This document shows, in pieces, positions 33,157 to 61,442 of a stretch of DNA of 64,000 nt. Below the pieces are notes generated by a model that worked only from the letters and a program-made list of their open reading frames with translations, made no database searches and was not told the DNA's origin. The position numbers and the translations under genes were made by a program. Source of the stretch: Candidatus Poribacteria bacterium. GTDB lineage: Bacteria > Poribacteria > WGA-4E > WGA-3G. The stretch's first letter is position 1. Every line of letters starts with the position of its first letter. The stretch covers positions 1 through 64,000 of the forward strand of contig JAJEIE010000033.1 in NCBI GenBank assembly GCA_022827625.1. The letters run 5' to 3'.

Positions 33157-36100
33157 GTGAAGCACCCCACCTTTTTCTTCTACACACTAACGATTGCTGC
33201 CATTCTATGTGTATCAACTCCCTTGTATTTACAAACCGTTGCTGCAGATCCGTACAGCACGCAGATAGCATTACCCGAAGGCGCAAAAGCACGGTTGGGT
33301 AAGGGTAGTATCAACGCGATAGCGTATTCACCCGATGGTACCCGCCTCGCCGTTTCAAGCACCCTTGGCATCTGGATGTATGACACCCACAGCGGAGAAG
33401 AATTGGAAGTGTTCGTCGCACGGAACGCGGATGCTGCCATCATGCAAACTGCGCCTGTGAGCATAGGAGACATCGCCTTCAGTCCCGATGGACAAACGCT
33501 CGCAAGTGCAGGGTACGACAGCGTTGTCCGTTTATGGGATGCTGTAACCGGGGAACAGAAAGCAATATTCACTGGACACGAGCGGAGCGCCGTTCAGATC
33601 GCCTTCAGTCCAGACGGACAAACCCTCGCAAGCGGCGGTGGATATTGGGACCCAACCGTGCGTCTGTGGGATATTAGTAGCGGCCGGCAAAATGCCATAT
33701 TCACGGGGCATGAGTCGGCTATCACCAGTCTTGCGTTCAGTCCAGATGGACAGACACTCGCAAGTGCAAGCAACGCCAATGAAGTTAAAACGATCCGTTT
33801 GTGGAATACTGCCAGTAGACAGCAAAAAGCAATACTCACCTCACACAATGCCCCTGTATATAGTCTTACGTTCAGTCCAGACAGTCGTATCCTCATAAGT
33901 GGGGAGGGATATGACCGTAGAACTGTCCGCCTATGGGATGTCAGCAGTCTTCAGAAGAAGCAGACACTCCCAGGACATCAAGGAAATGTCTATAGCGTCG
34001 TTTTCAGTCCAGATGGACAGACACTCGCAAGCGGCGATTCCGATGGCCACGTGTTTCTGTGGGATACAGTCAGTTGGGAACAGAAAGCTTCCATCGCGCA
34101 CACAACTGATGTCCAACACATCGCCTTCAGCCCAGACGGTAGGACACTCGCCATCGCTAACTCGGCGGAGGTGCATTTATGGGATGTCGTTAAAGGGGTT
34201 CCTATAAGACAACTTACCAAGCGTCTCGATGCACCGCTGTCAGTCGCCTTTAGTCCGGATGGACACACCCTTGCCAGCGGCAGCCGTGATGGGAGCGTTC
34301 AGCTCTGGAATGTTCGCAAGCAGCAACTCATAACCGCCTTGCCGGCACCACCACTCCTCAGATATGGATCCTGGGGATGGCATCCGTGGCGCGTCGAGAG
34401 TATAGCGTTCAGTCCGAACGGTAAAATCCTCGCAACTGTCGGGTATGAGCAGATATATCTATGGGAGCGCGTTCCACAACAATCGGGGTTACAAACCTCT
34501 TCCGCTATGTTATGGTGCCAAAAAGCGATACTTACTGGGCACACGAGCAATATTTATAGCATTGCCTTCAGTCCGGATGGACATCTAATCGCCAGTGGAA
34601 GTGCTGACCGAACGGTACGGCTTTTTGATGTTGAGAGCGGTCAGCATAAACGCACTTTCATAGGACATACAGGGACTATTTTAAGCGTTGTGTTCAGTCC
34701 CGATGGCAAAGCCCTCGCAAGTGGTGGTTACGACGACACTGTCCGATTGTGGAACATTGTTACAGGTGAAAATACAAAAATTCTGGCTACAGATACCTGG
34801 GTTATGGACGTTGCATTCAGTCCTGACGGGCAAACGCTCGCAAGCAGTGGGAGTTGGCGAGACAAAACTGTGATGTTGTGGGATGTTAGCACGGGGACCC
34901 GTAAAACGACCTTCGCACATACAGCGGAGCTGGGATCAATCGTCTTCAGTCCGGGTGGGCATACCCTCGCGGGCGGCGGTTCCGACGGCACTATACTGCT
35001 ATGGGATATGCAGACGAAAACACGGAAACGCATACACCGCGGGCATGCCGAATCAATTACAAGCATGGCATTCAGTCCGGATGGGCGCACATTCGCGAGC
35101 GGAAGTTATGACAGCACTGTGGTACTCTGGGAATTTGAACCGGCGGTAGAGGTAATACCAGCGACATACGTAGATAAGGGTGCAGCGGTGAAGGTCCAAG
35201 ATAGAGACGTTGTTGCGCCACCCCTCAGACAAGATGTGACACAATGGCATCTGCCTGAAGGGGCGAAAGCGCGCTTTGGAAAGGGCGGAATATCTGGAAA
35301 CGTGGTCTTCTCACCCGATGGTGCACAGTTGGTCGTTCCAACGTCGATCGGCATCTGGATATACGACGCCGACACAAACAATGCATTAAAACTTTACACC
35401 GAACATTCTCATAGGATCGGACGGGTTGCATTCAGTCCAGATGGCAAGACGCTTGTCGGTAGTCGGGACTGGGGAGATACCAAGGTCTATTTGTGGGACG
35501 CTCACACGGGGCAGCACAAAACTACCCTCGCTGGACATGCGGATGACGTGACGAACGTTGCTTTTAGTCCCGATGGTAACACAATCATCAGTAGCAGTGA
35601 AGATGGATCTCTATTCTTATGGGATGCTGTTACGGGTATGCCTTTCGCCACGTTCGGGGGGACTGAAGACGGTTGGATGAAGGCTCTCGCTATCAGTCCC
35701 GATGGCAAAACGCTCGCAAGTGGCGGATGGGCGGATCCCTTGCAGTTATGGAATATTAACACTCGGCAAACCGTTGCCATCCTTGAAAGTCATAGATTTT
35801 CTGTCGATGCAGTCGCTTTTAGCCCGGACGGTACCACCCTCGCCAGTGGGGGTTACGACGCGACAATCCGTTTGTGGGATGTTGAAAGCCACACCCTCAA
35901 AGCCGAATTCAGCGGTCCAACACGTCGCGTCTGGAGCCTCGCTTTTAGTCCTGACGGGCAAACCCTCGCCAGTAGCAGTGATGACGGCACTGTATTTTTG
36001 TGGGATGTTGAAAGCCACACCCTCAAAGCCACGCTCACGGGCCATACCCGTCCAACCACGAGTCTCGCCTTCAGTCCGAATGGCTTTACACTCGCCAGTG

Positions 36101-37446
36101 CAAGTCAAGACGGCACCATCCGACTCTGGGATGGAATAAAGGGTGACCATCGAGCGACTATTGCTGGGCATGCTGTGGAGGTCTCCAGTCTCGCGTTCAG
36201 TCCTGACGGGCAAAGCCTCGCAACCAGCGGTTGGGATAGCCTTGTGCAATTATGGGATATAGCAGATCCTGCACCGCTCAAAGCGATTCTGACAGGACAT
36301 TCAGAAGGCGTTGAGTCCATCGCGTTCAGTCCGGATGGGCAAACCCTTGCGAGTGGCGGCAGCAGTGGTTGGGCAGACAATAAAGTGTTCTTATGGGACA
36401 TAACGGGGACAGCCACACAGCAATCATCGACACTCGAATGCCAATTTCCTGTGGCAAGCAATCACGCAGCTGCTTACTTACATCATATTTCAACGGTGAG
36501 TGCGGTTGCCTTTAGTCCAGACGGCACCCGCCTCGCAGTCAGTGAAGAATATGAAAATAACAGAGTCATTCTGTTAGATGTTGCGACGGGTATGTCCGAA
36601 GCAGTGCTTGCTATCCCACAGACGAACAACTCAGACGGTGTCGCCTGCATTGCGTTCAGTCCAGACGGAAAAACACTCGCAGTTGGGTATTACAGGAACC
36701 TACGACTGTGGGATGTTCCCAGTGCAACACTCACTGCGACACTTGAAGGACATCGCCATTGGATTTCCGATGTTGCCTTCAGTCCAGATGGAGATATACT
36801 TGTCAGCAGTAGTTACCGGGACCCAGTCCGGGTATGGGATGTTGCCAGTGCTACAGAAATTGCAGTACTCAATGGACATACAAATGGTGCTCAGAGTGTC
36901 GCCTTCAGTCCGAGTGGCAAAACGCTTGCAATTGGCGGCACTTATAGAGACGGTATAGTGCGACTGTGGGATGTTCCCAACGCCAGGTATAAAACCACAC
37001 TCGTAGGACATAGGGATGGCGTAAACGACCTTGCGTTCAGTCCTGATGGTCGTACGCTCGCAAGTGGGGGCGGAGACGGAACTGTTCTCTTGTGGACCCT
37101 ACCCACTGAATCTGAAACGATCGGTGCACCACCCCAAAATTTACGAACCGCTAAGCAGACAGCTTTGCTGCAGAATTACCCGAATCCGTTCAACCCGGAG
37201 ACGTGGATACCTTACCAGCTGACAGAACCCGCTGAAGTTACTGTGCATATCTATACAGCAAAGGGAACCTTGATTCGCACGTTAACTGTTGGACACCGAC
37301 CTGCTGGTATCCACACACATCAAGGAGATGCCGTCCATTGGGATGGGAAGAACGAGTTCGGTGAATCTGTCGCAAGCGGTGTCTATTTCTACACACTGTC
37401 TGCAGGAAATTTCATAGCAACCCAGAAGATGTTGATTCAGAAATAG
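33157..37446 (+). CDS. Giant exported WD40 protein with FlgD-like C-terminal sorting domain
   Basis: A 1429-residue exported protein. A signal peptide (about residues 8-28) is followed by two long blocks that each begin LPEGAKAR-GKG and GIW-YD, with the repeated blade FSPDGQTLASGG...VRLWD. I count 14 FSPDG-type blades per block, 28 in total, consistent with four seven-bladed propellers; the block boundary is near residue 660-690 (about 35200). The last 85 residues (QNYPNPFNPETWIPYQL ... SGVYFYTLSAG) are a FlgD-Ig-like/type 9 secretion-like tail. The start is GTG with AGGAGGA upstream. Function unknown; such scaffolds often mediate protein-protein or cell-surface contacts. Confidence 0.9.
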   Translation: MKHPTFFFYTLTIAAILCVSTPLYLQTVAADPYSTQIALPEGAKARLGKGSINAIAYSPDGTRLAVSSTLGIWMYDTHSGEELEVFVARNADAAIMQTAPVSIGDIAFSPDGQTLASAGYDSVVRLWDAVTGEQKAIFTGHERSAVQIAFSPDGQTLASGGGYWDPTVRLWDISSGRQNAIFTGHESAITSLAFSPDGQTLASASNANEVKTIRLWNTASRQQKAILTSHNAPVYSLTFSPDSRILISGEGYDRRTVRLWDVSSLQKKQTLPGHQGNVYSVVFSPDGQTLASGDSDGHVFLWDTVSWEQKASIAHTTDVQHIAFSPDGRTLAIANSAEVHLWDVVKGVPIRQLTKRLDAPLSVAFSPDGHTLASGSRDGSVQLWNVRKQQLITALPAPPLLRYGSWGWHPWRVESIAFSPNGKILATVGYEQIYLWERVPQQSGLQTSSAMLWCQKAILTGHTSNIYSIAFSPDGHLIASGSADRTVRLFDVESGQHKRTFIGHTGTILSVVFSPDGKALASGGYDDTVRLWNIVTGENTKILATDTWVMDVAFSPDGQTLASSGSWRDKTVMLWDVSTGTRKTTFAHTAELGSIVFSPGGHTLAGGGSDGTILLWDMQTKTRKRIHRGHAESITSMAFSPDGRTFASGSYDSTVVLWEFEPAVEVIPATYVDKGAAVKVQDRDVVAPPLRQDVTQWHLPEGAKARFGKGGISGNVVFSPDGAQLVVPTSIGIWIYDADTNNALKLYTEHSHRIGRVAFSPDGKTLVGSRDWGDTKVYLWDAHTGQHKTTLAGHADDVTNVAFSPDGNTIISSSEDGSLFLWDAVTGMPFATFGGTEDGWMKALAISPDGKTLASGGWADPLQLWNINTRQTVAILESHRFSVDAVAFSPDGTTLASGGYDATIRLWDVESHTLKAEFSGPTRRVWSLAFSPDGQTLASSSDDGTVFLWDVESHTLKATLTGHTRPTTSLAFSPNGFTLASASQDGTIRLWDGIKGDHRATIAGHAVEVSSLAFSPDGQSLATSGWDSLVQLWDIADPAPLKAILTGHSEGVESIAFSPDGQTLASGGSSGWADNKVFLWDITGTATQQSSTLECQFPVASNHAAAYLHHISTVSAVAFSPDGTRLAVSEEYENNRVILLDVATGMSEAVLAIPQTNNSDGVACIAFSPDGKTLAVGYYRNLRLWDVPSATLTATLEGHRHWISDVAFSPDGDILVSSSYRDPVRVWDVASATEIAVLNGHTNGAQSVAFSPSGKTLAIGGTYRDGIVRLWDVPNARYKTTLVGHRDGVNDLAFSPDGRTLASGGGDGTVLLWTLPTESETIGAPPQNLRTAKQTALLQNYPNPFNPETWIPYQLTEPAEVTVHIYTAKGTLIRTLTVGHRPAGIHTHQGDAVHWDGKNEFGESVASGVYFYTLSAGNFIATQKMLIQK

Positions 37447-37620: not shown

Positions 37621-37649
37621 TGAATGCCTCTGAACCTAACGATCTTTGT

Positions 37650-37678
37650 TTGACTTCCACGCGACAATGTGATATACT
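37650..37678 (+). promoter_or_regulatory. Promoter for the PorV-like gene
   Basis: TTGACT (37650-37655, five of six) and TATACT (37673-37678, five of six) with a 17-base spacer. The start codon lies 30 bases after the -10 box. Confidence 0.6.
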
Positions 37679-37708
37679 AAATTTGGACTTTATCGACAGG
37701 GAGGAAAA

Positions 37709-38680
37709 ATGAGACATCTTAGATACCAGAGACGTATGTGCTGCAAGAGATATTGCCTTTTTACATATACACTCATCGCAATTTTTACCCTCATATCTCT
37801 GTCTACAGCAGCCGATAGCACAGACATCCACGAAAATGCCGGCACCCGCGCCATGACATTCCTCAAAATCGGGGTCGGCGCCGAGGCAATGAGCATGGGG
37901 GAATCGCAAGTCGCTGCGACCGATGACCTCTACGCATCATACTGGAATCCTGCCGGACTTACGAGACTCCAAAAACCGCAACTCGCGCTCATGCATAACG
38001 AGTGGTTCGCTGGAATCAACCACGAATTCGTTGGGTTCGCACTTCCACTTGGGAATATAGGCACCGTCGGCTTTAGTTCGAGTTACCTGTCTTTTGGTGA
38101 GTTACAGGGACGCGACCGAGAGGGGAACGAGACGACTATCTTCCGTCCCTACGATTTGGCGTTGATTCTCTCGTATGCCCGTAGTTTCGGCGACTCCCTT
38201 GCTTTCGGAACGAACGCGAAATTCTTACGCGAACAAATTGCTGACGCAGCCGGAACCGGTATTGCCTTCGATTTCGGCGTATTATACACCTTTCCCGGAA
38301 TGCCGCTCTCTTTGGGTTTCAACGCACAGCATCTCGGACCGAGAGTCAAGTTCATTGAGGAGGCTTTTGGGCTGCCTGTTACGTTTAGGCTCGGTAGTGC
38401 CTACAAACTCTGGAACGACGCGTTCACCCTCACCACTGACATTATCCGTCCATCCGATAATGATGTCGCGATAGGTGTCGGTGGGGGTTATACCATCGGC
38501 AATATCTTGCAACTCCGTACCGGTTATAAGTACAAGATCGGCGGCAACGATTTGGGAGCGATTTCTGGGCTGGCTGGCGGTTTTGGATTGACACTTCGGC
38601 AGTTCCAAATTGATTACGCCCTCGTCCCGTTCGGTGTCCTCGGATTGACCCACCGCTTCTCGTTGGTCGCTAATTTTTAA
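37709..38680 (+). CDS. PorV/PorQ-like outer-membrane beta-barrel protein
   Basis: A 323-residue outer-membrane protein of the PorV/PorQ (UPF0164) family. After a signal peptide (about residues 15-35) the mature N-terminus contains the family signature AGTRAMTFLKIGVGAEAMSM and ATDDLYASYWNPAGL. The remainder alternates amphipathic strands with Gly/aromatic turns (GTVGFSSSYLSFGEL, LQLRTGYKYKIGGND) and ends with the C-terminal Phe (SLVANF) of barrel proteins. PorV carries cargo to the type 9 secretion system; the neighbouring WD40 gene encodes a matching C-terminal tail. A full type 9 apparatus (SprA, PorK-N) is not in this window. Its stop overlaps the convergent C26 gene by four bases. Confidence 0.88.
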   Translation: MRHLRYQRRMCCKRYCLFTYTLIAIFTLISLSTAADSTDIHENAGTRAMTFLKIGVGAEAMSMGESQVAATDDLYASYWNPAGLTRLQKPQLALMHNEWFAGINHEFVGFALPLGNIGTVGFSSSYLSFGELQGRDREGNETTIFRPYDLALILSYARSFGDSLAFGTNAKFLREQIADAAGTGIAFDFGVLYTFPGMPLSLGFNAQHLGPRVKFIEEAFGLPVTFRLGSAYKLWNDAFTLTTDIIRPSDNDVAIGVGGGYTIGNILQLRTGYKYKIGGNDLGAISGLAGGFGLTLRQFQIDYALVPFGVLGLTHRFSLVANF

Positions 38681-50300: not shown

Positions 50301-51224
50301 ATGGCACAAGATTTCGACAATCTAAGCAAACGTTTATGGACGGATCATCCCCAAGACCTGTCGCGCTTCGTCACTGGCGAAGACGATGTTGAAATCGGTG
50401 AAGACATTAACACAGAACAACATTTTGTCGTCGCCCGGTACACCGACATCACAAAGTGGGCACAGATCAACGGACAGACAGTAATTTTACACGTTGAGCT
50501 GCAGCTTCGCGAAAGCACACACAGACCCATGTGGGCACGAAATGCACAATATCAGGGATACCTCGTTGGCGAATACCAGGTGCCCGTCTATTCTAACGTT
50601 ATCTATTTCCACCCCAGAGCCGGACGCGACGACCCGGGTGGATACGCCTACAAACACGAAGGTTATGGACATGCGAATCACTATAAGGTTATCCGCCTCA
50701 GTGAGGTAGAGGGGCAACCGATATTGGAGCAACAAGCACCGGGGCTACTCCCATTTACACCGCTTATGAAACCCCCCGAAGGCATGGCTCTCGAACACTG
50801 GATCCAAACCTGTGTTGACGCAACACTCGCCCTACCTGCTGATCAGGAGACCCAAGGAGACCTTCTTTGTGGCATCTCTCTGTTTGGTGGCATCGTCTAT
50901 GACCCACAACTTTTCAAGAGACTCATCCCGGAGGCAGTCATGCAAGAATCGAGATATTACCAACTCTTGCGTCAAGAATTCATCGCGCAAGGCATAGAAC
51001 AAGGCATAGAACAAGGTATAGAACAAGGTATAGAACAAGGTGCGCGCCAAATGAGTATTGAAAGCACATTGAACATTCTCAGTGAACGCTTCCCAAGTGC
51101 GGATGTCAACGCTCTCAAGCCGCTTCTGGAAGCGATTGAAGATCTTAACCGGCTCAAGGCGTTGAACCTAAATGCTTCCATAGCAGAGAATTTCCGCGCG
51201 TTCGAAGAAGGCTTAGAGACATAG
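50301..51224 (+). CDS. Rpn-family PD-(D/E)XK nuclease-like protein
   Basis: A 307-residue protein of the Rpn/PDDEXK transposase-like class. Residues 1-110 carry the core: a D-rich segment (DDVEIGEDINTEQ) and E66-x-Q68 in VILHVELQLR, the variant catalytic pair of this family. Rpn proteins of E. coli promote RecA-independent recombination. Residues 230-250 are four GIEQ units encoded by a 12-base tandem repeat (50988-51035), as often seen before the C-terminal helical domain (SIESTLNILSERFP). A helical DUF4351-like tail completes it. The gene has a long leader and its own promoter. Confidence 0.85.
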   Translation: MAQDFDNLSKRLWTDHPQDLSRFVTGEDDVEIGEDINTEQHFVVARYTDITKWAQINGQTVILHVELQLRESTHRPMWARNAQYQGYLVGEYQVPVYSNVIYFHPRAGRDDPGGYAYKHEGYGHANHYKVIRLSEVEGQPILEQQAPGLLPFTPLMKPPEGMALEHWIQTCVDATLALPADQETQGDLLCGISLFGGIVYDPQLFKRLIPEAVMQESRYYQLLRQEFIAQGIEQGIEQGIEQGIEQGARQMSIESTLNILSERFPSADVNALKPLLEAIEDLNRLKALNLNASIAENFRAFEEGLET

Positions 51225-51241: not shown

Positions 51242-52243
51242 CTATCGTTCCGATTCCTGGGCTTTCACGCGTCCCCAGACCGTCGTCAACAAATGCGGTT
51301 GAGGTGAAACCGGCAGTGCGAACGCCGGATCGAACCAATCCGCACTATAATTCCCGCCGCTGTCCGTGAGTTGTTCGGGTCTACCCCCGGCTAAAGCGAC
51401 TTTGAAGAGCTGCGTCCCCTCACGGGTTTTCTTTTCGTAAATAAGTGTATCGCCCTGCGGTGCCAAAGCCGGATTCGATCCTGGACCCTCCACAGCTTTA
51501 CGCGGCTTCTTGTTCCCTTTGCGATTTACAATGTAGAGTTGCATTGTAGGTGCTAAATCATCAACGCTTATACCGGAAAAGACGAGTCGGGTGCCATCCG
51601 GTGTCCATGCAGTGTGAAAAATCAAAGGAAACCCATCTGGCGAGATTTGATCTTTGGCATGCGTTCGCACGTTAACAATCTCAATTCTCGGTTTGGCGAT
51701 CTCTACGCCCCCAAATCTGTCATCTACAGGTAGAAGCACTTTGGCAGAGATGAAAGCGATTTCAGGACCCTCCGGTGCCCAAGTAGGATTCATACCGGTT
51801 GCTATCCGTTTTTCAGCGCCTCCTTTAATTGAGGCTGTATAGATAGCGACCTCACCCCTATCCACCCGATAGTAGGCGATCTGTTCACCATCGGGGGACC
51901 AGGTCGGATAACTCCGCCGCACTCTTTTGTGAAAAACACGCTTCACATCGCTACCATCCGCATCCATCACGTAGAGGTCTGAAATATTCCCGCCCCGCTC
52001 GGAGGCGAACAGAATCTGTCTGCCTGTCGGAGACCAGACCGGCGAGTAATCCGGCCCGCGATGATGTGTTAAATTCACCTGTCCACTGCCATCAGGATTC
52101 ATCACGTAAATTTCAGAATTGCCATCTCGGTTTGAGGCAAACACAATTTTAGCAGTTCGAGGTGCCCCCGCCGCAGTAGATATTACAGACCAACCAACCA
52201 CCAAACCCAATCCACACACAAGCAAAAAACGGATAAATTTCAT
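51242..52243 (-). CDS. Exported PD40/TolB-like propeller protein
   Basis: A 333-residue protein with a signal peptide (about residues 1-25) and repeated PD40 blades: IVFASNRDGNSEIYVMNPDG, SPVWSPTGRQILFASER, YPTWSPDGEQIAYYRVDR and later copies, as in TolB-type six-bladed propellers. The C-terminus LLTTVWGRVKAQESER carries the Leu-x-Thr/Trp-x-x-hydrophobic-Lys motif shared with three other secreted proteins nearby. It stands alone on the minus strand, convergent with the Rpn gene. The ATG at 52243 has AAGGAG in front. Confidence 0.88.
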   Translation of the reverse strand: MKFIRFLLVCGLGLVVGWSVISTAAGAPRTAKIVFASNRDGNSEIYVMNPDGSGQVNLTHHRGPDYSPVWSPTGRQILFASERGGNISDLYVMDADGSDVKRVFHKRVRRSYPTWSPDGEQIAYYRVDRGEVAIYTASIKGGAEKRIATGMNPTWAPEGPEIAFISAKVLLPVDDRFGGVEIAKPRIEIVNVRTHAKDQISPDGFPLIFHTAWTPDGTRLVFSGISVDDLAPTMQLYIVNRKGNKKPRKAVEGPGSNPALAPQGDTLIYEKKTREGTQLFKVALAGGRPEQLTDSGGNYSADWFDPAFALPVSPQPHLLTTVWGRVKAQESER

Positions 52244-52327
52244 CGTCAACTCCTTATTTGTTGTGCGATGTTTTCTGTTCAATCCAATCTACGTACTGAC
52301 TGCTGATTGCTGACCGCTGACGGCTAC

Positions 52328-53725
52328 CTACGTCTTCTGCGGTTTCTTACGTGCCGCCGGAAACAGAATGTTGTTCAGGATGAGCCGATACCCCGGCGAA
52401 TGTTTGTGTAAATCCAGATTCGTCGGGATTTTGCCTTCACCGACAAGGTGGCGATAGTCCTCTGGGTCGTGTCCACCGAGGAACGTCCAAGTGCCTTTCC
52501 CTAATTTACCGTGGATATATTTGGCGTAGTTCGTGCCTTCCACCTCTCCCAGAATCGTGACAGAGCCGCGAATCTTATCCATGTTAAACGATGTCGTCTG
52601 CCCGAGGTAGCCCGGCACAACGCTTACATGATTTTGTGTGAGCATCGTCGGAATCGGATCGTGTTTTGCGGCGAACTCGAAAAGCTTGAAGTCCTCAACG
52701 CCGCTCTGTGCGTCCCTATCAGGATTCGGGTTATCTATATCCGAGAATTCGTATCGGTACGGATTCGTGTAGAGTTTGAAGTTCTCAAACGCCAAAGTGC
52801 GCTGAAAATCGAGCCGTGTTTCCGCATCTACTTCGATAGGTGTCCCATCTAATTCAGGTGCAACAATGTCAACAGCACCGCCAAGAGTTGCCAACGCGAT
52901 GTCCAAGGTTTCAGGGGCAGAACACATCGCAAAGATGAAGCCACCGTTAACGATATAGTCTGCGATCATCTGTGCCGTCTCACCTTTGTGCTGCGCGACG
53001 CGTCGAAACCCTGCCTCCGTAGCGGCTTGCTCAAACATTAACATCCGTTGTTGATACCAGACCTGCGTCGAAAACGAGGCGTGGAACTTGCCGTGCTGCC
53101 CCGTAAAATCCTCGTGGTGCAGATGGAGCCAATCGTAATCATCTGTCTCTAAAACGCCGCTTTGGACCTCTTTATCCCAGATGACATCGTAGGGAATCTG
53201 TGCGTAGTCCAGCGCAATTTTAACAGCATCGTCCCATGGATCTCGATAAGGCGATGCCTCCGAGGGTGCGTATACCGCAATCTTCGGAGCCTTTTCCAAG
53301 AGAATCTCGTCCATATTGCTACCTTGCAGAACAGATGCCTTGATGCTGCTATACGTAGCGTTGTCCATCGCTTCAAAGCTGACCCCCATGAGCGCAGCGC
53401 GTATGCGGACATCTGAAGCGTCCGGCAGCACAAATGCGCCACCACGGTAATTCAGCCACCAATAACAGCGATACTCACGCGGAACCTCTAATGCCCAGTA
53501 TGTCAAACCGTAAGCCTTCAGATGGTTTGTCTGTGCGCCGAGATCCATCGGTATCAAAAGCCATTGCGCGGCGGCGATGTTTGGACCGATAAGGAACAGG
53601 GCGAGTACCAAGAGCATAGTGCCGAGCCTCAAAAACCTCCCAGCACGCGGTAGGCGAGGTTGGAAAACCTCGCCGGTCTGTAGTGTCCAATTAATTCTAA
53701 ATTTCACGATACGAAACGTATTCAT
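52328..53725 (-). CDS. Uncharacterised exported protein (asparagine synthetase B-named family)
   Basis: A 465-residue exported protein. A hydrophobic segment at about residues 35-53 (MLLVLALFLIGPNIAAAQ) precedes a mature part that starts LLIPMDLGAQTNHLKAYGL. Similar proteins in Bacteroidetes-related databases are called asparagine synthetase B, but no synthetase motif is visible. Segments such as IADYIVNGGFIFAMCSAPET and TWTFLGGHDPEDYRHLVGEG suggest a class I glutamine amidotransferase-like or ThuA-like fold. Its start overlaps the stop of the upstream gene (TGATG), so it is translationally coupled to the large transthyretin/PD40 protein. Function not known. Confidence 0.7.
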   Translation of the reverse strand: MNTFRIVKFRINWTLQTGEVFQPRLPRAGRFLRLGTMLLVLALFLIGPNIAAAQWLLIPMDLGAQTNHLKAYGLTYWALEVPREYRCYWWLNYRGGAFVLPDASDVRIRAALMGVSFEAMDNATYSSIKASVLQGSNMDEILLEKAPKIAVYAPSEASPYRDPWDDAVKIALDYAQIPYDVIWDKEVQSGVLETDDYDWLHLHHEDFTGQHGKFHASFSTQVWYQQRMLMFEQAATEAGFRRVAQHKGETAQMIADYIVNGGFIFAMCSAPETLDIALATLGGAVDIVAPELDGTPIEVDAETRLDFQRTLAFENFKLYTNPYRYEFSDIDNPNPDRDAQSGVEDFKLFEFAAKHDPIPTMLTQNHVSVVPGYLGQTTSFNMDKIRGSVTILGEVEGTNYAKYIHGKLGKGTWTFLGGHDPEDYRHLVGEGKIPTNLDLHKHSPGYRLILNNILFPAARKKPQKT

Positions 53726-56460
53726 CAATTTCTACTCGGAATATCTGCTTGTGGATTACCCGCGACAGCCGCCGGTTCACGCCCAAATACGACATGTCCA
53801 TTGTGTATCAGTGCTGCCTCGGTAGTTTCGGGGTGCGTCGTATCAATTTTCCAAAGTTGTCCGTTATTTTCGTAGATAAGCCACCGCCCTGCGGGTGGCA
53901 CCCAGGCTGGATGCGAGCCCCCCCTGCGGGTTAACTGCTTTTCTGTAGGGACACCGTCACTTGAATAAGTAACAAGCCAAATCTGTTGGTAATCGCCTAC
54001 CTTTCGTGTGAATGCCAGTTGATTCGGATTCGCAGGCGACCAAGTCGGTTCTATATCGTCTGTGTCTGGTGATATGACAATCGGCTCAACACGCTGTGCA
54101 ATTTGATCGAAGGCGTAGATGTTTCGTCTCTGTTGCCCATCAACCCGAACCGCTGCGTCCGGATTCTCAATGCTCCCTGCGGTAACATAAGCCAGTATCG
54201 TGCCGTCGCTATTCCAGGCAGGTGTGAAACTTTGCAGAGCCGTTGACGGCACAGTGAACTCAGAACCACTCGAAATATGCTGTATAATCAGGCGAGTTCG
54301 GTCTCCGAACTCCGGACGTGTATAGGCAAGGTATTCTGCATCCGGTGAGATCGCGACATCGTCTGCCATTTTTCGTCTATCAAGCAGCAGCCCCCCATCC
54401 GGCATTTCACGGTTCCGAATAATAACGTTTCCATCCCTATCTTGATAAACGAGTGTCCCATCATTTGCAACAGTCGGATTGTGTCCAATGCCTAACGGTG
54501 TGCTATTGCTATCAGGCGAGATCCCCCAAATCATACCGTCGTAAGCGAAATAGATAAAGGCGGATAACTGTCCTGCCGCTCCCATTGTAGACGCCTCAGA
54601 CGCTTCCGCATTTTCATTTCCGAGGTCTTTCTTTATCAGTTTCGGATCAACGTCCTCTTTGAGCGTGAACGATTCCGTATTACCTAATTCCCAACCTGCC
54701 CCGTTCGCTTTCCAAACAAAACTGAGCCCTTTTGTCCAGTAGTTCCACTCCTCGTTTAAACGCCCATTGCGAGTGACACGAAAAATGTCTTCCGGTTCTC
54801 CATAAAGTTTCCTGATTTCCCAGCGTCCACCGTCCTCAATTTCCGCCATATTTCCGTCTGCATCGATGTAAATTGCGAGAACTCCAATGTCAATATGTGC
54901 CGTTGTGTCTCCAGGGAAGACATGAACCGCTGTCGGTTCTCCGCGGACGGGATGACGTGTGCCGTAGATTCCAACGCCATCGGCGATACCCGTTTTCTGG
55001 TCGTTATTTGCGTCCACTACTACCATGACGTAATAGCTGCCCGGTAGCACACTGACTCGGTAGCTGCCATCGCCTGAAACAGTAATCGGCATCGCAATCG
55101 GTGTACTGAAGTCAGACGCGTAAGAGAGCGTCAGTATGCCTTGCTCGACAGTGTGTCCGTCCCATACGATACGTCCGGCGATGCCGCCTTGTTCAATGTG
55201 TGCTTCAATACCGGGTGGCGTGGCATGAAGCCGTCCATCGTCATCGTAGCGGGCACTGATCACGACTTCAATTTCTTGGGTCTCGCCTTCTGCTAAGGTG
55301 AGCGCAGTTGGGGGCTGCATCGTGATGTCTATCGTACCATAGCCTCCTAAACCATCACCCTTACTATACCTACCATCTTTATCCGCATCCAGATTGGCGA
55401 TCACATAGTATTCATCCGGCGGGAGTGCTAAACGGAACGCGCCACCAGGCGCCGTTTCCGCACTGGCAACCGGCGCCACTAAAGCGGGGTCCGAATACAC
55501 TTCAATCCGCCCGGTTACATCTCCCGGAACCGGAGACAGGATGCCCGTGAGCGTGCTGGTCGCCGCCTCTTGCGTTTTTTTTCGAGTCTGGTAGGTAGCG
55601 GTGATTGCTATTTCTATATTTTCGGTGAATTTGTTCGCAGAAACCAAAACAGGTTGTGGGAAATTCCCACGTTTCCGCATATCCTCAACGCCGTAGAAGC
55701 CAAAGTCGTCCCCTGTATCCAATTTATTTGTATTATTGTTATCGACAATCGCCATCAGGTAATACTTACCCGGCGGAAGGTTGAGCGTCCAATTGCCAGT
55801 GTCTGTCCCTCTGGTAATACCGGCGCGATATTTCCAAGATAAATCTGTATACGCAAGGATTAACGCTTTTGAACCCGTTTGAAGCGGATTCGGGTTTTCT
55901 GCAGTCCGACGCAGGGCAGCGATTGTGCCACTACACCCCGATGTCGCTTTGCGCAACTCCGTCTGAAATTGCTGGAGTTGACTCGGCTCGTATTCGGATA
56001 GTGGAACAACTGTCGGGCTACCATCGATGTAAGTGGCGCGTGCGGTTATCGGAATCTCTAAACCTCGAATCTTTTCTCCGTCTTGAACTTCAACCACCTG
56101 TTTGTTTTGAGCTTCATTGCCCCAGTCAGTAATTCCGAACATACCCAAGCCATCTCCGGTATCGAAACTCCCAGATTTGTCAACATCTACATAAGCGACA
56201 AGATAATAGCGTCCGGGTTCCACGCGGAGTGTGAATTGCCCATCACCGAGTTGCGGGATCCCGCTGATATAAACCTGTTGGAGCGCTTCATCGCGATAGA
56301 CAGACACGCTTGTGTGTGACAAATCTTGACCTCTCCAGACGACTCTTCCTGTTAAGGTTGCCGTCATCCGTTTTGCCGTAGCGTCTGCCTGTGCCTGACC
56401 AAAAGCCTCACCGGCAAATCCAATACTGATAATAAATAACAAAAGTGCCAACGATTTCAT
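53725..56460 (-). CDS. Exported protein with four transthyretin-like repeats and a PD40 propeller
   Basis: A 911-residue exported protein. After a signal peptide (about residues 1-21) come four similar beta-sandwich units, each ending with the block YY-V/M-x-x-x-D-x-x-x-x-x-x-x-DG-GxYG: YYLVAYVDVDKSGSFDTGDG, YYLMAIVDNNNTNKLDTGDD, YYVIANLDADKDGRYSKGDG and YYVMVVVDANNDQKTGIADG. The acidic loops could bind calcium, like those of dockerin/EF loops. The last third is a PD40-type propeller (YFAYDGMIWGISPDSN, ISPDAEYLAYTRPEFG, PTWSPANPNQLAFTR). It overlaps and is coupled to the gene downstream. An AAAGGAA site precedes ATG 56460. Confidence 0.82.
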   Translation of the reverse strand: MKSLALLLFIISIGFAGEAFGQAQADATAKRMTATLTGRVVWRGQDLSHTSVSVYRDEALQQVYISGIPQLGDGQFTLRVEPGRYYLVAYVDVDKSGSFDTGDGLGMFGITDWGNEAQNKQVVEVQDGEKIRGLEIPITARATYIDGSPTVVPLSEYEPSQLQQFQTELRKATSGCSGTIAALRRTAENPNPLQTGSKALILAYTDLSWKYRAGITRGTDTGNWTLNLPPGKYYLMAIVDNNNTNKLDTGDDFGFYGVEDMRKRGNFPQPVLVSANKFTENIEIAITATYQTRKKTQEAATSTLTGILSPVPGDVTGRIEVYSDPALVAPVASAETAPGGAFRLALPPDEYYVIANLDADKDGRYSKGDGLGGYGTIDITMQPPTALTLAEGETQEIEVVISARYDDDGRLHATPPGIEAHIEQGGIAGRIVWDGHTVEQGILTLSYASDFSTPIAMPITVSGDGSYRVSVLPGSYYVMVVVDANNDQKTGIADGVGIYGTRHPVRGEPTAVHVFPGDTTAHIDIGVLAIYIDADGNMAEIEDGGRWEIRKLYGEPEDIFRVTRNGRLNEEWNYWTKGLSFVWKANGAGWELGNTESFTLKEDVDPKLIKKDLGNENAEASEASTMGAAGQLSAFIYFAYDGMIWGISPDSNSTPLGIGHNPTVANDGTLVYQDRDGNVIIRNREMPDGGLLLDRRKMADDVAISPDAEYLAYTRPEFGDRTRLIIQHISSGSEFTVPSTALQSFTPAWNSDGTILAYVTAGSIENPDAAVRVDGQQRRNIYAFDQIAQRVEPIVISPDTDDIEPTWSPANPNQLAFTRKVGDYQQIWLVTYSSDGVPTEKQLTRRGGSHPAWVPPAGRWLIYENNGQLWKIDTTHPETTEAALIHNGHVVFGREPAAVAGNPQADIPSRN

Positions 56461-56571
56461 TTTTTTTCCTTTGTACGGGTGTTTTCTTCTCTGCGATAAC
56501 TTAAATAATATTAACACGTACAGCGATAATTTGCAAATAGAGATGACAACCGATAACGAATAACACTAAAT

Positions 56572-56601
56572 TTGACTTTCGCCTTTAATATATGGTATAA
56601 T
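56572..56601 (+). promoter_or_regulatory. Promoter for the LamG-type gene
   Basis: TTGACT (56572-56577) and a perfect TATAAT (56596-56601), spacer 18 bases. It faces away from the transthyretin-like gene. Confidence 0.7.
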
Positions 56602-56609
56602 ATTTCCAA

Positions 56610-56631
56610 TTTACCGACATGTGTCGGTAAA
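56610..56631. promoter_or_regulatory. Operator-like inverted repeat at the transcription start
   Basis: TTTACCGACA and TGTCGGTAAA are perfect inverted arms with a two-base centre. The repeat starts eight bases after the -10 box, so it overlaps the expected start of transcription. A dimeric repressor bound there would block initiation; in RNA it could form a stem. No regulator gene is adjacent. Confidence 0.55.
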
Positions 56632-56695
56632 ATAATTTGTTTTCCATCTTTGGTGAACATCTGACTCCGATAAATTCAAAAAGGAGCTCCGATTC

Positions 56696-57460
56696 ATGAG
56701 AAGAATAGGCTATTACATCTGTGCGATCTTACTGACGTTGTCCGTATCAATGCCAGCATTTGCACAGGACGCGCAAGCAGACAATTTGCTTGGCTGGTGG
56801 TTATTTGACAGCGAAAAGGACGAAATCGGTAACTGGAGCGATATCGACCTTCACGGTGCTGAACTCAAAGACGGGCAGCTGATTGTTGAGACAGGAAGAT
56901 GGGCACACGCACTTGAATACTCCGGACCCGATATTGAAGAGAAAACTTTGATGACATGGGTAGCATTGGACAGCCTCGATCCAACAGCAGGTTCGGCTCT
57001 CACGCTTGATAAAGCCAGCGAAGACCAATTCAACGCCATCGTTTATGCAGAACGTCAACCAAAGCAATGGATGTCGGGAAGCAGCTGGTTCCACCGCACT
57101 GAAGACTTCCCGGATGCACACAATGAAAACAAAGAAGGCGAAATGGTCTACTTAGCCTTCACTTATGAAGATAAGGGTGGGACTTACAAGATAACGGGCT
57201 ACCGCAACGGTGAAAACCTCGGTAGTTATGAAAAGGGTGAGATCAAAACTTGGCCCACGGATGACGCAGAAATTATCTGGGGTAAACGTCATACAAACGG
57301 ACTCGACGGTCCTGGCGACCTCAACGCACACATTGAGGAATCCCGTATTTACTCCGTCGCATTGACCGAGGATGAGGTCAATGACATGGAACTCGGAACG
57401 CTTTCTGTTGATCCACAGGGCAAACTCGCAACGCGCTGGGCAAAACTTAAAGCGAAGTAA
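56696..57460 (+). CDS. Secreted LamG/concanavalin-like lectin-fold protein
   Basis: A 254-residue exported protein. A signal peptide of about 25 residues (ending AFAQ) is followed by a LamG-type jelly roll: NLLGWWLFDSEKDEIGNWSD, GRWAHALEYSGPDIEEKTLM, TWVALDSLDPTAGSALTLDK and, near the end, HIEESRIYSVALTEDEVND. Such domains bind glycans or form parts of surface proteins. It ends with PQGKLATRWAKLKAK, the C-terminal motif shared with neighbouring secreted proteins. Promoter and operator-like repeat lie directly upstream. Confidence 0.88.
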   Translation: MRRIGYYICAILLTLSVSMPAFAQDAQADNLLGWWLFDSEKDEIGNWSDIDLHGAELKDGQLIVETGRWAHALEYSGPDIEEKTLMTWVALDSLDPTAGSALTLDKASEDQFNAIVYAERQPKQWMSGSSWFHRTEDFPDAHNENKEGEMVYLAFTYEDKGGTYKITGYRNGENLGSYEKGEIKTWPTDDAEIIWGKRHTNGLDGPGDLNAHIEESRIYSVALTEDEVNDMELGTLSVDPQGKLATRWAKLKAK

Positions 57461-57470
57461 TGCTGGAATT

Positions 57471-57501
57471 GTAGGGCAAGGTCGCCTGACCTTCGCCCTA
57501 C
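57471..57501. repeat. GTAGGGC hairpin after the LamG gene
   Basis: GTAGGGC-AAGGTC (57471-57483), loop GCCT and GACCTT-C-GCCCTAC (57488-57501) form a long, nearly perfect stem ten bases past the stop codon. It again starts with GTAG and ends with CTAC. It may serve as terminator, though no T run follows. Confidence 0.55.
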
Positions 57502-57611
57502 TTCTCATGTTGGCTCTGTGAAAGCGATTTGTGGAGTCCCAATTTTGTTAGCACTACAAAAGATTTCTTAACCAACCACTGACGGTTTCCGACAACCGAC
57601 AGCCATTATTT

Positions 57612-58298
57612 ATGAACAGCCGAATCACACGCTTCCTGATGTACATCAGTATCTGTTTCGCTTCCGTCGCAAGTGCCGATGAACTCACTTGGACATTCGA
57701 CGACACTGCTGCAGACTGGACCCCCGCAAACGGCACGTGGGCAGTCGAAGATGGGGTCTATAAACAGACAACACGCTATGGTAAGGCACAGAAAGCGTTA
57801 GCGAATGGGGCGGAGTGGACAGACCATACCGTAGCGGCAAAAGTCCGTATTGAGGCAGGACACTGGGCGGGGATCGTTTTCCGCGCACAAAACGAATTTG
57901 AGTACTACGTCTATCTCATCTGCCCGAAAGAAAACAAGTCAGAATTGTGGCGACACCGGCGCAGCACCGCCTTTAAAGATGGATTTGAAGGGCGCGACGA
58001 GATTGAACACGATATCGCGCCTATCGGACTCACGCTGGCTCGAAATGAATGGTTCACGCTCAGAGCAACCCTTGAAGGCAGCCGCATCGCACTCGCTATT
58101 AATGATATAGAACAAGCGGTGTTTGTTGACGACACGTATCCTCGCGGTAAAATCGGCGTCTGGACCTGGGACACGCAAGCCAGTTTTGATGATGTCAGTG
58201 TCAACGGTGTTAACACAACGTCTCTCACACCCGTGGAACCGCACGGAAAACTCGCAACAGCATGGGCGGGGCTAAAGCAAATAACGAATAGTGATTAG
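57612..58298 (+). CDS. Secreted DUF1080/LamG-like jelly-roll protein
   Basis: A 228-residue exported protein with a signal peptide (about residues 8-23, ending ASADE-like) and a jelly roll resembling 3-keto-disaccharide hydrolase/DUF1080 domains: LTWTFDDTAADWTPANGTW, GHWAGIVFRAQNEFEYYVYL and PRGKIGVWTWDTQASFDDVSV. It may bind or hydrolyse a sugar. The C-terminus PHGKLATAWAGLKQ carries the shared Leu-x-Thr/Trp-x-x-Leu-Lys motif. No ribosome binding site is evident before the ATG at 57612. Confidence 0.82.
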   Translation: MNSRITRFLMYISICFASVASADELTWTFDDTAADWTPANGTWAVEDGVYKQTTRYGKAQKALANGAEWTDHTVAAKVRIEAGHWAGIVFRAQNEFEYYVYLICPKENKSELWRHRRSTAFKDGFEGRDEIEHDIAPIGLTLARNEWFTLRATLEGSRIALAINDIEQAVFVDDTYPRGKIGVWTWDTQASFDDVSVNGVNTTSLTPVEPHGKLATAWAGLKQITNSD

Positions 58299-58340
58299 TA
58301 ATGAGTGATTAGCGAACAGCGATTAGCAAATAGCAAATTA
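58280..58340 (+). repeat. GATTAG heptamer tract
   Basis: AACGAATAGTGATTAGTAATGAGTGATTAGCGAACAGCGATTAGC: a run of seven- to eight-base units around the stop codon and just beyond it. GTCAGC-type tracts of the same style occur at 47822-47850 and 52296-52325. Confidence 0.5.
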
Positions 58341-58351
58341 GGAGGATTTTA

Positions 58352-58819
58352 ATGGCAAATGTAGGAAGTGCTGCACCAGATTTTACACTACAAGGTGCGG
58401 TCAACCAAGAAGATGTTGAAGTTTCATTGGGCGACTATGCTGGTAAAAATTTAGTCGTGCTTTTCTATCCACTCGCTTTTTCCCCAGTCTGTGCTGAGCA
58501 GGTACCGGATTTCAACGAACAGTTGAGCGCAATTCAGGCGAAGGGTGCTGAGGTCATCGCTATCAATCGGGATTCAACCTTCGCGCATAAGGCGTGGAGC
58601 GAAGTACTCGGTGGTGTCGATTTTCCGCTGCTTGCGGATATGAACCTTGAGGTATCCAAAGAGTTCGGTATGGCACTTGAAGAAGTTGGTATTACCACGC
58701 GCGGTGTGTTTATCATTGATAAATCCGGAAACATCGCCTTCAAACACGTCGAAGCCGCACCGCCAGACAATACGCTGACTGCCGAACAGGTTTTGGGCGA
58801 ATTAGACAAACTGCAATAG
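58352..58819 (+). CDS. Peroxiredoxin (AhpE/PrxQ-like)
   Basis: A 155-residue cytoplasmic thiol peroxidase. The family core is ATPDFTLQG-type N-terminus and the active site PLAFSPVCAEQ, with peroxidatic C47; the usual Thr of the PxxxTxxC motif is Ser44. Further features are AINRDSTFAHKAWSEVLGG and GVFIIDKSGNIAF. A second resolving Cys is not present, so this is a one-Cys, AhpE-like type, which would use an external thiol. A TTAGGAGG ribosome site precedes the ATG. Confidence 0.9.
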   Translation: MANVGSAAPDFTLQGAVNQEDVEVSLGDYAGKNLVVLFYPLAFSPVCAEQVPDFNEQLSAIQAKGAEVIAINRDSTFAHKAWSEVLGGVDFPLLADMNLEVSKEFGMALEEVGITTRGVFIIDKSGNIAFKHVEAAPPDNTLTAEQVLGELDKLQ

Positions 58820-58861
58820 ACACGCCAGTATCGCAGGCGAGGTACGTCTCTCGTATAAACG

Positions 58862-58924
58862 AAAAAGCGGGTATCTGGTAAAACCGGCAAACGATCGTTT
58901 ACATGCTACCGACACCCGCTTTTT
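58862..58924 (+). terminator. Long-loop terminator-like hairpin
   Basis: AAAAAGCGGGT (58862-58872) and ACCCGCTTTTT (58914-58924) form an 11-pair stem ending in Ts, with a 41-base loop holding GGTAAAACCGGC and an AAACGATCGTTT palindrome. It ends peroxiredoxin transcription and is symmetrical, so could work in both directions. Promoter or riboswitch-like use of the loop is not excluded. Confidence 0.5.
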
Positions 58925-59042
58925 GCTTTAACTTTTTACTTTACTTTGAAAACGTCAGATGGATGTGTTATTATAATTAATTAATGAAAGGGATTCATAG
59001 AATCATCGACTGCTGATGGTTTCCAACAGCCATCGTATAAAT

Positions 59043-59114
59043 GCGGGTGTAGCTCAGCGGTAGAGCGTCAGCTTCCCAAGCTGAGGGTCGCGGGTTCAAT
59101 TCCCGTCACCCGCT
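59043..59114 (+). tRNA. tRNA-Gly (CCC anticodon)
   Basis: A complete cloverleaf: acceptor stem GCGGGTG with CACCCGC (59107-59113), D arm GCTC/GAGC, anticodon stem TCAGC/GCTGA around TTCCCAA (anticodon CCC, reading GGG glycine codons) and T arm GCGGG-TTCAATT-CCCGT. Discriminator T at 59114. The 3' CCA is not encoded, so it must be added after transcription. The fold-back element of 59126 begins 11 bases after it. Confidence 0.93.
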
Positions 59115-59125
59115 TGACTATCTTT

Positions 59126-59261
59126 TATAGTAAATTATGTAAATAAGTTTACATATCTTCTGTAGAAGCACTCTCCGAATCGCGACCCAATCGCTGTGAG
59201 TCGGGAATCGGAGTTCCCTCCTACAGTTTCAGATGTAAAGCTAATTGTAGAATCCACTATA
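59126..59261 (-). repeat. 135-bp fold-back element, copy 2
   Basis: This segment is the reverse complement of 28299-28433 with few mismatches: it starts TATAGTAAATTATGTAAA and ends TTGTAGAATCCACTATA. It lies just downstream of the tRNA-Gly gene and 25 bases before the TPR gene, in the opposite orientation to copy 1. The TA-flanked fold-back form suggests a MITE. Confidence 0.75.
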
Positions 59262-59286
59262 AAATCGTGTAGAACTGAGGACAATC

Positions 59287-60390
59287 ATGGCACAAGACCG
59301 ACGACTAACGAAAGAAGAAATCCAAGAAGATAAATTTGTTGAAGGTGTCCTGGAAGTCTATGCCTTCCTGCGCCGAAATCTGCGGGCGATTGTTATTATT
59401 GTGGGTGTAATCGTTGTTGCCGTTGCAGGTTATGCAGCATATTCTCAGAATCAGGAGAACCGCCGCGCCGAAGCAACCCTCGCACTCCGTCAGGCGACCG
59501 AAGCCTATCAGACCGCCGAAGAAAGCCTTTTTGACACCGAGACATTGGCTGAAAGTGAAGAATCACTTAAGGCGGCACAGACGCAGCTGCAAGAGATTTA
59601 TGAGAAATATCCGAGTTCAACTTTTAGTGACAAGGCGCGCTACCAATACGCAAAGACCCTCTATTATCAAAAAAATTACCCAGAAGCACGGGCGCAATTC
59701 CAACAAATCATTGACCAGCACCAACCCGAAAATCAAATCTACAGCCTATATGCCCAAAAAGCGATAGGCAATACCTACGAACAAGAAGGTAATTACGAAG
59801 CCGCCATCGCTGCCTATCAAGCGAAGGCATTTCTACCAACGCAGCAACTCTCACCTGCAATCCGGCAATTCGTCCTCGCCAGTGCCAAATTTAACCAAGC
59901 CCTCGCTTATGAAAAGTCTGGCGATCCAGACGCTGCAGGTGCCGCATATAAAGAAATTATAGACGAATTCCGAACCACACTTGAGGCAGGAATCGCTCAG
60001 AAAAGCCTCGAGCTCATCGAGGATGCAAAAGTTGTTATCGAAGCGATTGGCGAACCGTTAGATATATCGGGCGCGCAAACCCTCGAAAACGAAAAACGGT
60101 ACTATGACGCTTACGTCGCGTACACGGACGCAATTCGCACCTATAAAGTGAACAAAGACATCGCAGGTGGACTCACCTCTGAACTCCGAAAGCAGATTGG
60201 CAGCTTTGAAAAAGAGGCAATGGAAGTCATAAACAACGTTCAAAACGCCCGTCGCGCCGATGAAGAAGGCAGAGAAAGTTCGGCACTGTATAGCTATGAT
60301 CTCGTTGTTGAATTTGAGAAACTCGGATTAAGCCGTCGGCTCTATGAAAACGCACTTCTCCATCACAAACGGCTTGGATCTGCCCAATGA
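59287..60390 (+). CDS. TPR protein with N-terminal membrane helix
   Basis: A 367-residue protein. After about 35 residues a membrane helix is seen (IVIIVGVIVVAVAGYAAYSQ), then a periplasmic part of alpha-helical tetratricopeptide repeats (TLYYQKNYPEARAQFQQIID, AIGNTYEQEGNYEAAIAAYQ, ALAYEKSGDPDAAGAAYKEI). The layout resembles YfgM/BamD-like envelope TPR proteins, which assist protein export or barrel assembly. A PD40 gene starts 24 bases later in the same direction. ATG 59287 is preceded by GAGGAC. Assignment of a partner is not possible. Confidence 0.82.
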   Translation: MAQDRRLTKEEIQEDKFVEGVLEVYAFLRRNLRAIVIIVGVIVVAVAGYAAYSQNQENRRAEATLALRQATEAYQTAEESLFDTETLAESEESLKAAQTQLQEIYEKYPSSTFSDKARYQYAKTLYYQKNYPEARAQFQQIIDQHQPENQIYSLYAQKAIGNTYEQEGNYEAAIAAYQAKAFLPTQQLSPAIRQFVLASAKFNQALAYEKSGDPDAAGAAYKEIIDEFRTTLEAGIAQKSLELIEDAKVVIEAIGEPLDISGAQTLENEKRYYDAYVAYTDAIRTYKVNKDIAGGLTSELRKQIGSFEKEAMEVINNVQNARRADEEGRESSALYSYDLVVEFEKLGLSRRLYENALLHHKRLGSAQ

Positions 60391-60413
60391 TTTTTATTTC
60401 GTAAGGAGCAGTA

Positions 60414-61442
60414 ATGACACATAAATATAGCCGGATACCTTTTTCTGCCTCTAAGACCCTTCAGTTCACGCTTTTGAGCCTGTGCGCCTTATGCCTCATT
60501 TTCCTCGCTTCACCAGTCAATGCTGAACCTTCTGGACAATTGGCTTATGCGGTTAACGGGTTTGATGAGAATTTAGGACGTTTCGATTGGAACCTCTATG
60601 CTACTGCCCTTAAAGGTACGAAAGATTTCACAGCGATCCCTTTGAATCACAAAGGCATGTATCCCTCTTGGGGACCTAACGGCGATTTGCTTTATTTCAT
60701 CCAACGTGATAAGGGACACTCTGATATCTATTCCATTAATCCTGACAACCCGAAGAATAAGAAACTCGTTACTCCCGCTTCCGGGACATACCGTTTCCTT
60801 TCTGTCTCTCCCAACGGTAGACAACTTGCTTTCAACGGTTATACGATAAACCAATTGCCCCAAGAAAACCAGATTTGGGTTCTCGACATCGAAACTGGCG
60901 AAATGGAAGTGATGACACAGGTACCACATGCCGGATGGCCCTATTCATTCTGGGGCATCTCTTGGTCCCCTAACGGAAGGCGACTCGCCTTTTCGCTCTC
61001 CAGACCGGGGTGGTTGGAACACCTCTACCTTTTAGATGTCGAAACTAAAGAGATAGAGGTTCTGACTGAACTCAATAAAGATTTTTATCCCGTCTGGGCA
61101 CCTGGCGGCGATCGCATCCTTTTCCTCAGATGGAATAGAGAGTTTGAAACCTTTTGCACAATTGACATTAACACCAAAGAGATTGTACCGTTGTTTGATG
61201 TTGATAAAGCCACGGGCTATTGGGGCGACTGGTCGCCTGAAGGGGACTACATAGCCTATTCTCGGTGGGGATCGGTCTATCTTTATGACTTCGCTACCGA
61301 CGAGACACAGGAGATCGTTGAGGTGGATGGCAGTATTTTCGTCATTTCCTGGTTGCGAGATATAAGGATATTACCTGTCGAAGCACAGCAAAAATTGGTC
61401 ACGACGTGGAGTGACATTAAACGCGAAGCAACTCAGCAATAA
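60414..61442 (+). CDS. Exported PD40/TolB-like propeller protein
   Basis: A 342-residue protein with a signal peptide (about residues 15-38, ending SPVNA) and PD40 blades: FLSVSPNGRQLAFNG, GISWSPNGRRLAFSLSR, YPVWAPGGDRILFLRW and GDWSPEGDYIAYSRWGS, a TolB-type propeller. The C-terminus is VEAQQKLVTTWSDIKREATQQ-like, carrying the shared Leu-x-Thr-x-Trp-x-x-Ile-Lys motif. It is in a tight run with the TPR gene and mutS2 (gaps of 24 and 14 bases). AAGGAGC precedes ATG 60414. Confidence 0.88.
   Translation: MTHKYSRIPFSASKTLQFTLLSLCALCLIFLASPVNAEPSGQLAYAVNGFDENLGRFDWNLYATALKGTKDFTAIPLNHKGMYPSWGPNGDLLYFIQRDKGHSDIYSINPDNPKNKKLVTPASGTYRFLSVSPNGRQLAFNGYTINQLPQENQIWVLDIETGEMEVMTQVPHAGWPYSFWGISWSPNGRRLAFSLSRPGWLEHLYLLDVETKEIEVLTELNKDFYPVWAPGGDRILFLRWNREFETFCTIDINTKEIVPLFDVDKATGYWGDWSPEGDYIAYSRWGSVYLYDFATDETQEIVEVDGSIFVISWLRDIRILPVEAQQKLVTTWSDIKREATQQ

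Follow-up and report, generated by a model that had tools for sequence, protein, structure and literature searches.

Four genes between positions 51,242 and 61,442 of the window, by which we mean the whole 64,000-nucleotide stretch of Candidatus Poribacteria DNA analysed here (G000:C25:1-64000, part of a 5.02 Mb genome), encode predicted exported proteins that end in a similar short peptide, hereafter referred to as the tag (Table 1). The C-termini quoted for these proteins in the initial annotation were all present as given. Aligned on their tryptophan residue, the ends read PVSPQPHLLTTVWGRVK-AQESER (51242 protein), SVDPQGKLATRWAKLK-AK (56696), PVEPHGKLATAWAGLK-QITNSD (57612) and PVEAQQKLVTTWSDIK-REATQQ (60414), having in common V-x-[PA] upstream, then L-x-T-x-W-[GAS]-x-[ILV]-K, with 2–6 residues between the tag and the stop codon. 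A Sec signal peptide was found on all four. The three unrelated scaffolds noticed in the initial annotation were recovered as a PD40/TolB-like propeller, a LamG-like jelly-roll and a 3-keto-disaccharide-hydrolase-like jelly-roll, the 51242 and 60414 proteins belonging to one propeller family. No Pfam or NCBIfam model extended over the ends of the four proteins, and the type-A sorting domain of the type 9 secretion system (T9SS; TIGR04183/PF18962) gave no match in any of them. The shared end-tag of the four window proteins is genuine.

Table 1. Tagged proteins, their C-terminal tags and T9SS-related genes in the window
Feature	Position	Strand	Evidence
Exported WD40-repeat protein ending in T9SS type-A sorting domain	33157..37446	+	TIGR04183 31.4 bits (cut-off 23)
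PorV/PorQ-family outer-membrane protein (T9SS-type component)	37709..38680	+	NF033709 205.8 bits (cut-off 90)
Exported PD40/TolB-like beta-propeller protein, tagged	51242..52282	-	Signal peptide; PF07676 1.2e-22; AlphaFold2 propeller
C-terminal tag VSPQPHLLTTVWGRVK of the 51242..52282 protein (residues 325-340 of 346)	51263..51310	-	Ends inspected; profile
Exported LamG-like jelly-roll protein, tagged	56696..57460	+	Signal peptide; PF13385 6.7e-10; AlphaFold2
C-terminal tag SVDPQGKLATRWAKLK of the 56696 protein	57404..57451	+	Profile; 30-base pattern match 57422-57451
Exported 3-keto-disaccharide-hydrolase-like jelly-roll protein, tagged	57612..58298	+	Signal peptide; PF06439 2e-10
C-terminal tag PVEPHGKLATAWAGLK of the 57612 protein	58230..58277	+	Profile; 30-base pattern match 58248-58277
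Exported PD40/TolB-like beta-propeller protein, tagged	60414..61442	+	Signal peptide; PF07676 1.4e-12
C-terminal tag PVEAQQKLVTTWSDIK of the 60414 protein	61374..61421	+	Profile match 61368-61427

A motif-profile search of the genome's proteins, as proposed in the initial annotation, was carried out with a profile built from Trp-anchored protein ends. The gene-level survey covered 2.06 Mb (41%) of the genome with 1,563 predicted genes, the other 59% being covered by profile and pattern searches only, and gene and signal-peptide calls were made with simple scripts of our own, the latter representing a crude predictor. In the part surveyed, 69 of the 1,563 genes ended in the tag (>7.5 bits, 1–6 residues from the stop). 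When the same proteins were reversed, a single sequence exceeded 4 bits (7.7), the next scoring 3.8. The full motif was [AP]-V-[EDS]-[PA]-x-[GD]-K-L-[AT]-T-T-W-[GA]-x-[LI]-K followed by 1–6 residues before the stop. Upstream of the Trp, V at −10 was present in 62, P or A at −8 in 61, K at −5 in 60, L at −4 in 56, T at −2 in 53 and T at −1 in 49 of the 69 ends, with G or A at +1 in 65 and L or I at +3 in 61; W (position 0) and K (+4) were found in all 69, an invariance partly due to both having anchored the search. A degenerate 30-base pattern gave 65 matches genome-wide and 0 when read backwards, and the profile search of the whole genome returned at least 150 matches. Chance or composition as the origin of the tag is ruled out by the reversed-protein and reversed-pattern controls. 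Among the matches to the 30-base pattern synonymous codons differed freely within the tag, indicating that selection acts on the peptide and ruling out a DNA repeat or mobile 3′ end. Tagged genes occurred in tandem clusters at G000:C33:42000-51000 and C31:4000-9600, and among the 69 there were 22 neighbouring pairs starting less than 3 kb apart.

Signal peptides were called in 66 of the 69 tagged proteins as compared with 481 of all 1,563 genes (hypergeometric 1e-31). Of the three without an automatic call, two showed, by eye, a stretch resembling a signal peptide when a later start was taken, and one was the 3′ part of a frame-split gene. An equal frequency of the motif in cytoplasmic proteins, named in the initial annotation as a finding that would speak against a tag, was not observed, as no tagged protein appears to be cytoplasmic. 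In 65 of the 66 tagged proteins there was no membrane-like segment beyond the signal peptide, whereas many untagged proteins with signal peptides do have one.

The proteins that carry the tag (carriers) were diverse. Pfam assigned LamG folds to 35, PD40 to six and Kelch to three or four of 68 tagged proteins, with CBM9, 3-keto-disaccharide hydrolase and LTD domains in one or two each. After removal of signal peptide and tag, the carrier bodies fell into approximately 19 sequence clusters, the largest comprising 37 LamG-type proteins. Mean pairwise identity among paralogues was 50% in the tag versus 19% in the body, and in the LamG set extended by homologues from other genomes it was 64% versus 28%. 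AlphaFold2 models were obtained for the LamG protein 56696 (mean pLDDT 67; residues 236-254 below 50) and for the propeller 51242 (mean pLDDT 80, with blades at about 90; residues 325-343 below 50). In both models the tag lay outside the body and was drawn as a short low-confidence helix, disposing of the objection, also raised in the initial annotation, that the motif might be part of a longer conserved fold. An amphipathic helix was considered and rejected: the helical hydrophobic moment of the tag was not above that of shuffled tags and the modelled helix is not trustworthy, while the strand moment did exceed that of shuffled tags (z 4.9).

The possibility that the tag is a structural C-terminal cap, or was inherited together with one domain family and has no sorting role, was already disfavoured and we consider it very improbable. 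The tag does travel in part with the LamG family, which in the part read is essentially all tagged; 35 of 37 family matches were tagged outright, one had a variant tag and one was a frame-broken gene. About 18 other clusters, with different folds, carry the same tag, however; it is more conserved than the bodies and is predicted to be detached from both jelly-roll and propeller. The clusters, the AlphaFold2 models and the contrast in conservation together led us to reject that it is part of the fold or belongs to a single gene family, even though nearly all LamG members have it. In the frame-broken LamG gene (L041, G000:C25:89510-90424) the tag NPKDKLATSWGQIKRLR was kept near the end in another frame. 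The tag is C-terminal, confined to exported proteins and independent of fold.

Across the phylum, a strict DNA pattern matched all 85 Poribacteria genomes, representing 22 genera, with controls near zero. Profile matches numbered from 36 to at least 150 per genome in each of 11 genomes spanning the phylum, and a genome in which the strict DNA pattern found almost no tags (G009) still had 68 profile matches. No tag-less Poribacteria genome that could serve for phylogenetic profiling was found among the genomes searched. Contigs of 84,980 species were also scanned with a stricter pattern, in which neither stop distance nor signal peptide was used as a criterion. Among the matches listed there were 114 places, 109 of them in records titled Poribacteria; on the listed loci, a stop followed within 1–6 codons for 118 of 121 pattern matches, and a signal peptide was present in 99 of 106 complete open reading frames.

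The matches outside the phylum were few. Those in Bacteroidaceae and Clostridia were rejected as chance, the former being internal to a protein and the latter lying in a 24-codon frame, and these two genomes, used as a negative control for the profile, gave one low-scoring match each (E >0.2). In one archaeal and one deltaproteobacterial bin the tags were found on a single small contig per bin, suggestive of misbinning. In the deltaproteobacterial bin (L166:2636-3717, minus strand) the tag lay just downstream of an esterase frame, with a stop or frame change between the two. A sponge bin titled 'Pseudomonadota' contained tagged exported proteins, distantly similar to the Poribacteria ones, on three contigs (L137, L267, L272); this may reflect either misbinning or a transfer into another sponge symbiont. 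The tag was in no family library searched (Pfam, NCBIfam), had no significant match in the PDB, where the best weak matches were internal, and no description of it was found in the open-access literature searched.

Based on these properties, we consider it likely that the motif is a dedicated sorting, retention or processing tag of some kind. With somewhat less assurance, we favour the more specific reading that it serves the phylum Poribacteria as a genuine modular recognition tag at the C-terminus, about 16 residues long and read by a receptor after Sec export. The initial annotation had suggested a sorting, anchoring or processing tag; its reality, C-terminal position, restriction to exported proteins, independence of fold and absence from family libraries all stand, while the function in sorting, anchoring or processing is one that we only infer.

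The tag resembles the signals of the PEP-CTERM/exosortase and LPXTG/sortase systems in that many exported proteins of a genome carry a short conserved motif at the C-terminus. PEP-CTERM and LPXTG signals are tripartite, however, consisting of a motif, a membrane helix and a basic end, whereas the Poribacteria tag is followed by 1–6 residues and no helix. MYXO-CTERM, the signal for myxosortase, also marks dozens of proteins per genome and is found throughout a phylum as a C-terminal sorting tag (PMC11980579). MYXO-CTERM, with its invariant Cys, and the rhombosortase signal GlyGly-CTERM, with its GlyGly, each also have a membrane helix and a basic cluster, none of which is present in the tag. 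Searches for the sortase family PF04203 and the exosortase family PF09721 gave no match in 11 representative Poribacteria genomes, the controls being positive in 3 of 14 and 1 of 14, respectively, and a sortase or exosortase system was rejected. The comparison with LPXTG and PEP-CTERM made in the initial annotation thus fails on architecture, and the co-occurring sortase that it had suggested testing for was not found in these 11 genomes. Targeting peptides of encapsulins and bacterial microcompartments are short, C-terminal and placed after a flexible linker, and direct cytosolic cargo; the likeness lies in the short terminal peptide after the linker and the difference in the cargo, which is exported here.

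The T9SS is best known in Bacteroidota. Like the tag, its type-A signal is C-terminal and is carried by Sec-exported proteins with many different folds, and families of the PorV/SprA/PorU machinery occur in the same genomes as the tag. The remark in the initial annotation that the window has no recognised sorting system for the motif needs one correction, since parts of a sorting system are present: the window encodes both a T9SS type-A protein and a PorV/PorQ-family protein (Table 1). The latter gene follows directly on the WD40 gene with the type-A domain (33157-38680). A single-cell study from 2014 reported T9SS-type C-terminal domains in Poribacteria and no T9SS structural genes (PMC3909097). 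With current models, we found a SprA/Sov-like protein, mostly of 2,100–2,300 amino acids, in 84 of the 85 genomes, the curated equivalog cut-off being reached in one genome only; its best-matching stretch had E values mostly of 1e-14 to 1e-22, and none was found in 14 control genomes. In the window's own genome it scored 145 bits; one locus encoding this giant predicted outer-membrane protein is L246:4469-11242 (minus strand). PorV/PorQ-family proteins were over the cut-off in all 11 genomes tested, with at least 12 matches each and about 16 PorV-family matches in the window's genome. C25 peptidases (PF01364, over the cut-off) were present in 84 of 85 genomes, mostly with three matches per genome. 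One from the window's genome (C31:85765-92037) ended in a type-A-like domain and adjoined a PorV-family gene, the two (C31:84617-92037) resembling a PorV/PorU pair. The phylum-wide presence of SprA-like proteins, PorV-family proteins and C25 peptidases reopens the 2014 question of a T9SS in Poribacteria (PMC3909097).

The number of C25 peptidases is consistent with the tag being a processing signal, which a C25 paralogue or a tail-specific protease would remove, thereby releasing or attaching the carrier, in the way that PorU acts on T9SS domains. The invariant Trp and Lys and the conserved V-x-P in front of them could form a recognition or cleavage site. A scissile bond cannot, however, be deduced because only 1–6 residues follow the tag, and the C-terminus of the C25 peptidase inspected is an ordinary type-A-like domain; we regard this explanation as unlikely.

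A connection between the tag and the type-A domain was apparent in composite proteins. In 59 of the 85 genomes a W-G-x-x-K element was found immediately upstream of a type-A domain, mostly in one gene each, with eight such composites in one deep-branching genome. The spacing from W-G-x-x-K to the start of the domain (N-[YF]-P-N-P-F-N) was usually 54 bases in several families and genera. In the window's genome the composite was an FG-GAP/ASPIC protein with the tag just before the T9SS sorting domain. Of 20 composite loci examined (L247-L266), two were out of frame and represent chance matches. As the tag sometimes lies directly before a T9SS domain, it can coexist with one, and removal of the domain would make the tag the C-terminus. 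The near-fixed spacing also speaks for the tag being a truncated or ancestral leading part of the type-A domain that remained after loss of the Ig-like domain. We judge this quite improbable, as only one of the 18 proteins with a type-A domain in the 2.06 Mb read had the tag in front, and tag-only proteins, whose bodies belong to other families, far outnumber the composites.

Under the reading that we favour, of a modular recognition tag, the peptide forms the extreme C-terminus of Sec-exported proteins, to which a short flexible linker connects it, and a periplasmic or outer-membrane receptor would bind the peptide's Trp and Lys and its hydrophobic positions after Sec export. This receptor would sort carriers or retain them, probably at the cell surface, and the most economical candidate for it would be a T9SS-like outer-membrane apparatus comprising the SprA-like translocon, the expanded PorV/PorQ family and C25 peptidases. 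To this apparatus the tag would be an additional signal, far shorter than the usual type-A domain beside which it would operate. More broadly, we tentatively propose a phylum-specific sorting system in which a 16-residue tag that lacks a membrane anchor is recognised by a putative Poribacteria receptor, or by a PorV/SprA-type apparatus taking a peptide instead of a folded domain, so that about 150 or more of the exported proteins in each genome would be directed to the cell surface. A T9SS-like reader as such is attractive because the apparatus is present and composites exist, and we hold it possible but doubtful.

Several observations weigh against such a reader. The type-A signal is an Ig-like fold of 80–90 residues and no sequence similarity between it and the 16-residue tag was found, so that the short tag is no homologue of it; most tagged proteins have no type-A domain. 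The tag was absent from Bacteroidota among the matches listed in the species scan and is therefore no general T9SS signal. Around PorV-family genes there were 13 tags in 517 kb, close to the genome average and showing no enrichment, and adjacency of tags to the SprA-like gene was seen only within the window's genus. With the tag universal and T9SS parts near-universal in the phylum, co-occurrence cannot discriminate between partners, and phylogenetic profiling cannot single one out. A PorV paralogue as neighbouring receptor was rejected, one being near tagged genes in two genera with no enrichment overall, as was co-location with the SprA-like gene as a rule for the phylum, given its limitation to the window's genus. 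Of the type 9 comparison drawn in the initial annotation, what stands is that T9SS parts occur phylum-wide and composites exist; the link itself is possible and circumstantial.

Apart from shared presence there is no genomic link between the tag and T9SS genes, which is in keeping with docking or retention in the periplasm, whereby the tag would bind a soluble or membrane-bound periplasmic scaffold and the carrier would not be translocated across the outer membrane. Carriers that are Sec-exported, small and soluble, with a short tag and no membrane segment, would suit this arrangement. The lectin-like LamG, CBM9 and propeller cargo, on the other hand, fits surface or extracellular roles, and the tag preceding T9SS domains implies that some carriers use the T9SS. 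We consider periplasmic docking rather unlikely.

The findings point to a previously undescribed label by which exported proteins would be addressed. With about 150 or more exported proteins per genome carrying it, the tag can be used at once to list candidate surface or periplasmic proteins, of which many are lectin-like, and it serves as a phylum marker legible from sequence alone. Poribacteria are abundant uncultured bacteria best known as sponge symbionts, and the list bears on how they present proteins to the sponge host. If a 16-residue peptide does replace the folded T9SS domain, it would constitute a new minimal secretion signal. Adjoining the 51242 gene, the protein encoded at 50301-51224 of the window has consecutive GIEQ repeats (GIEQGIEQGIEQGIEQG) within the last third of its length.

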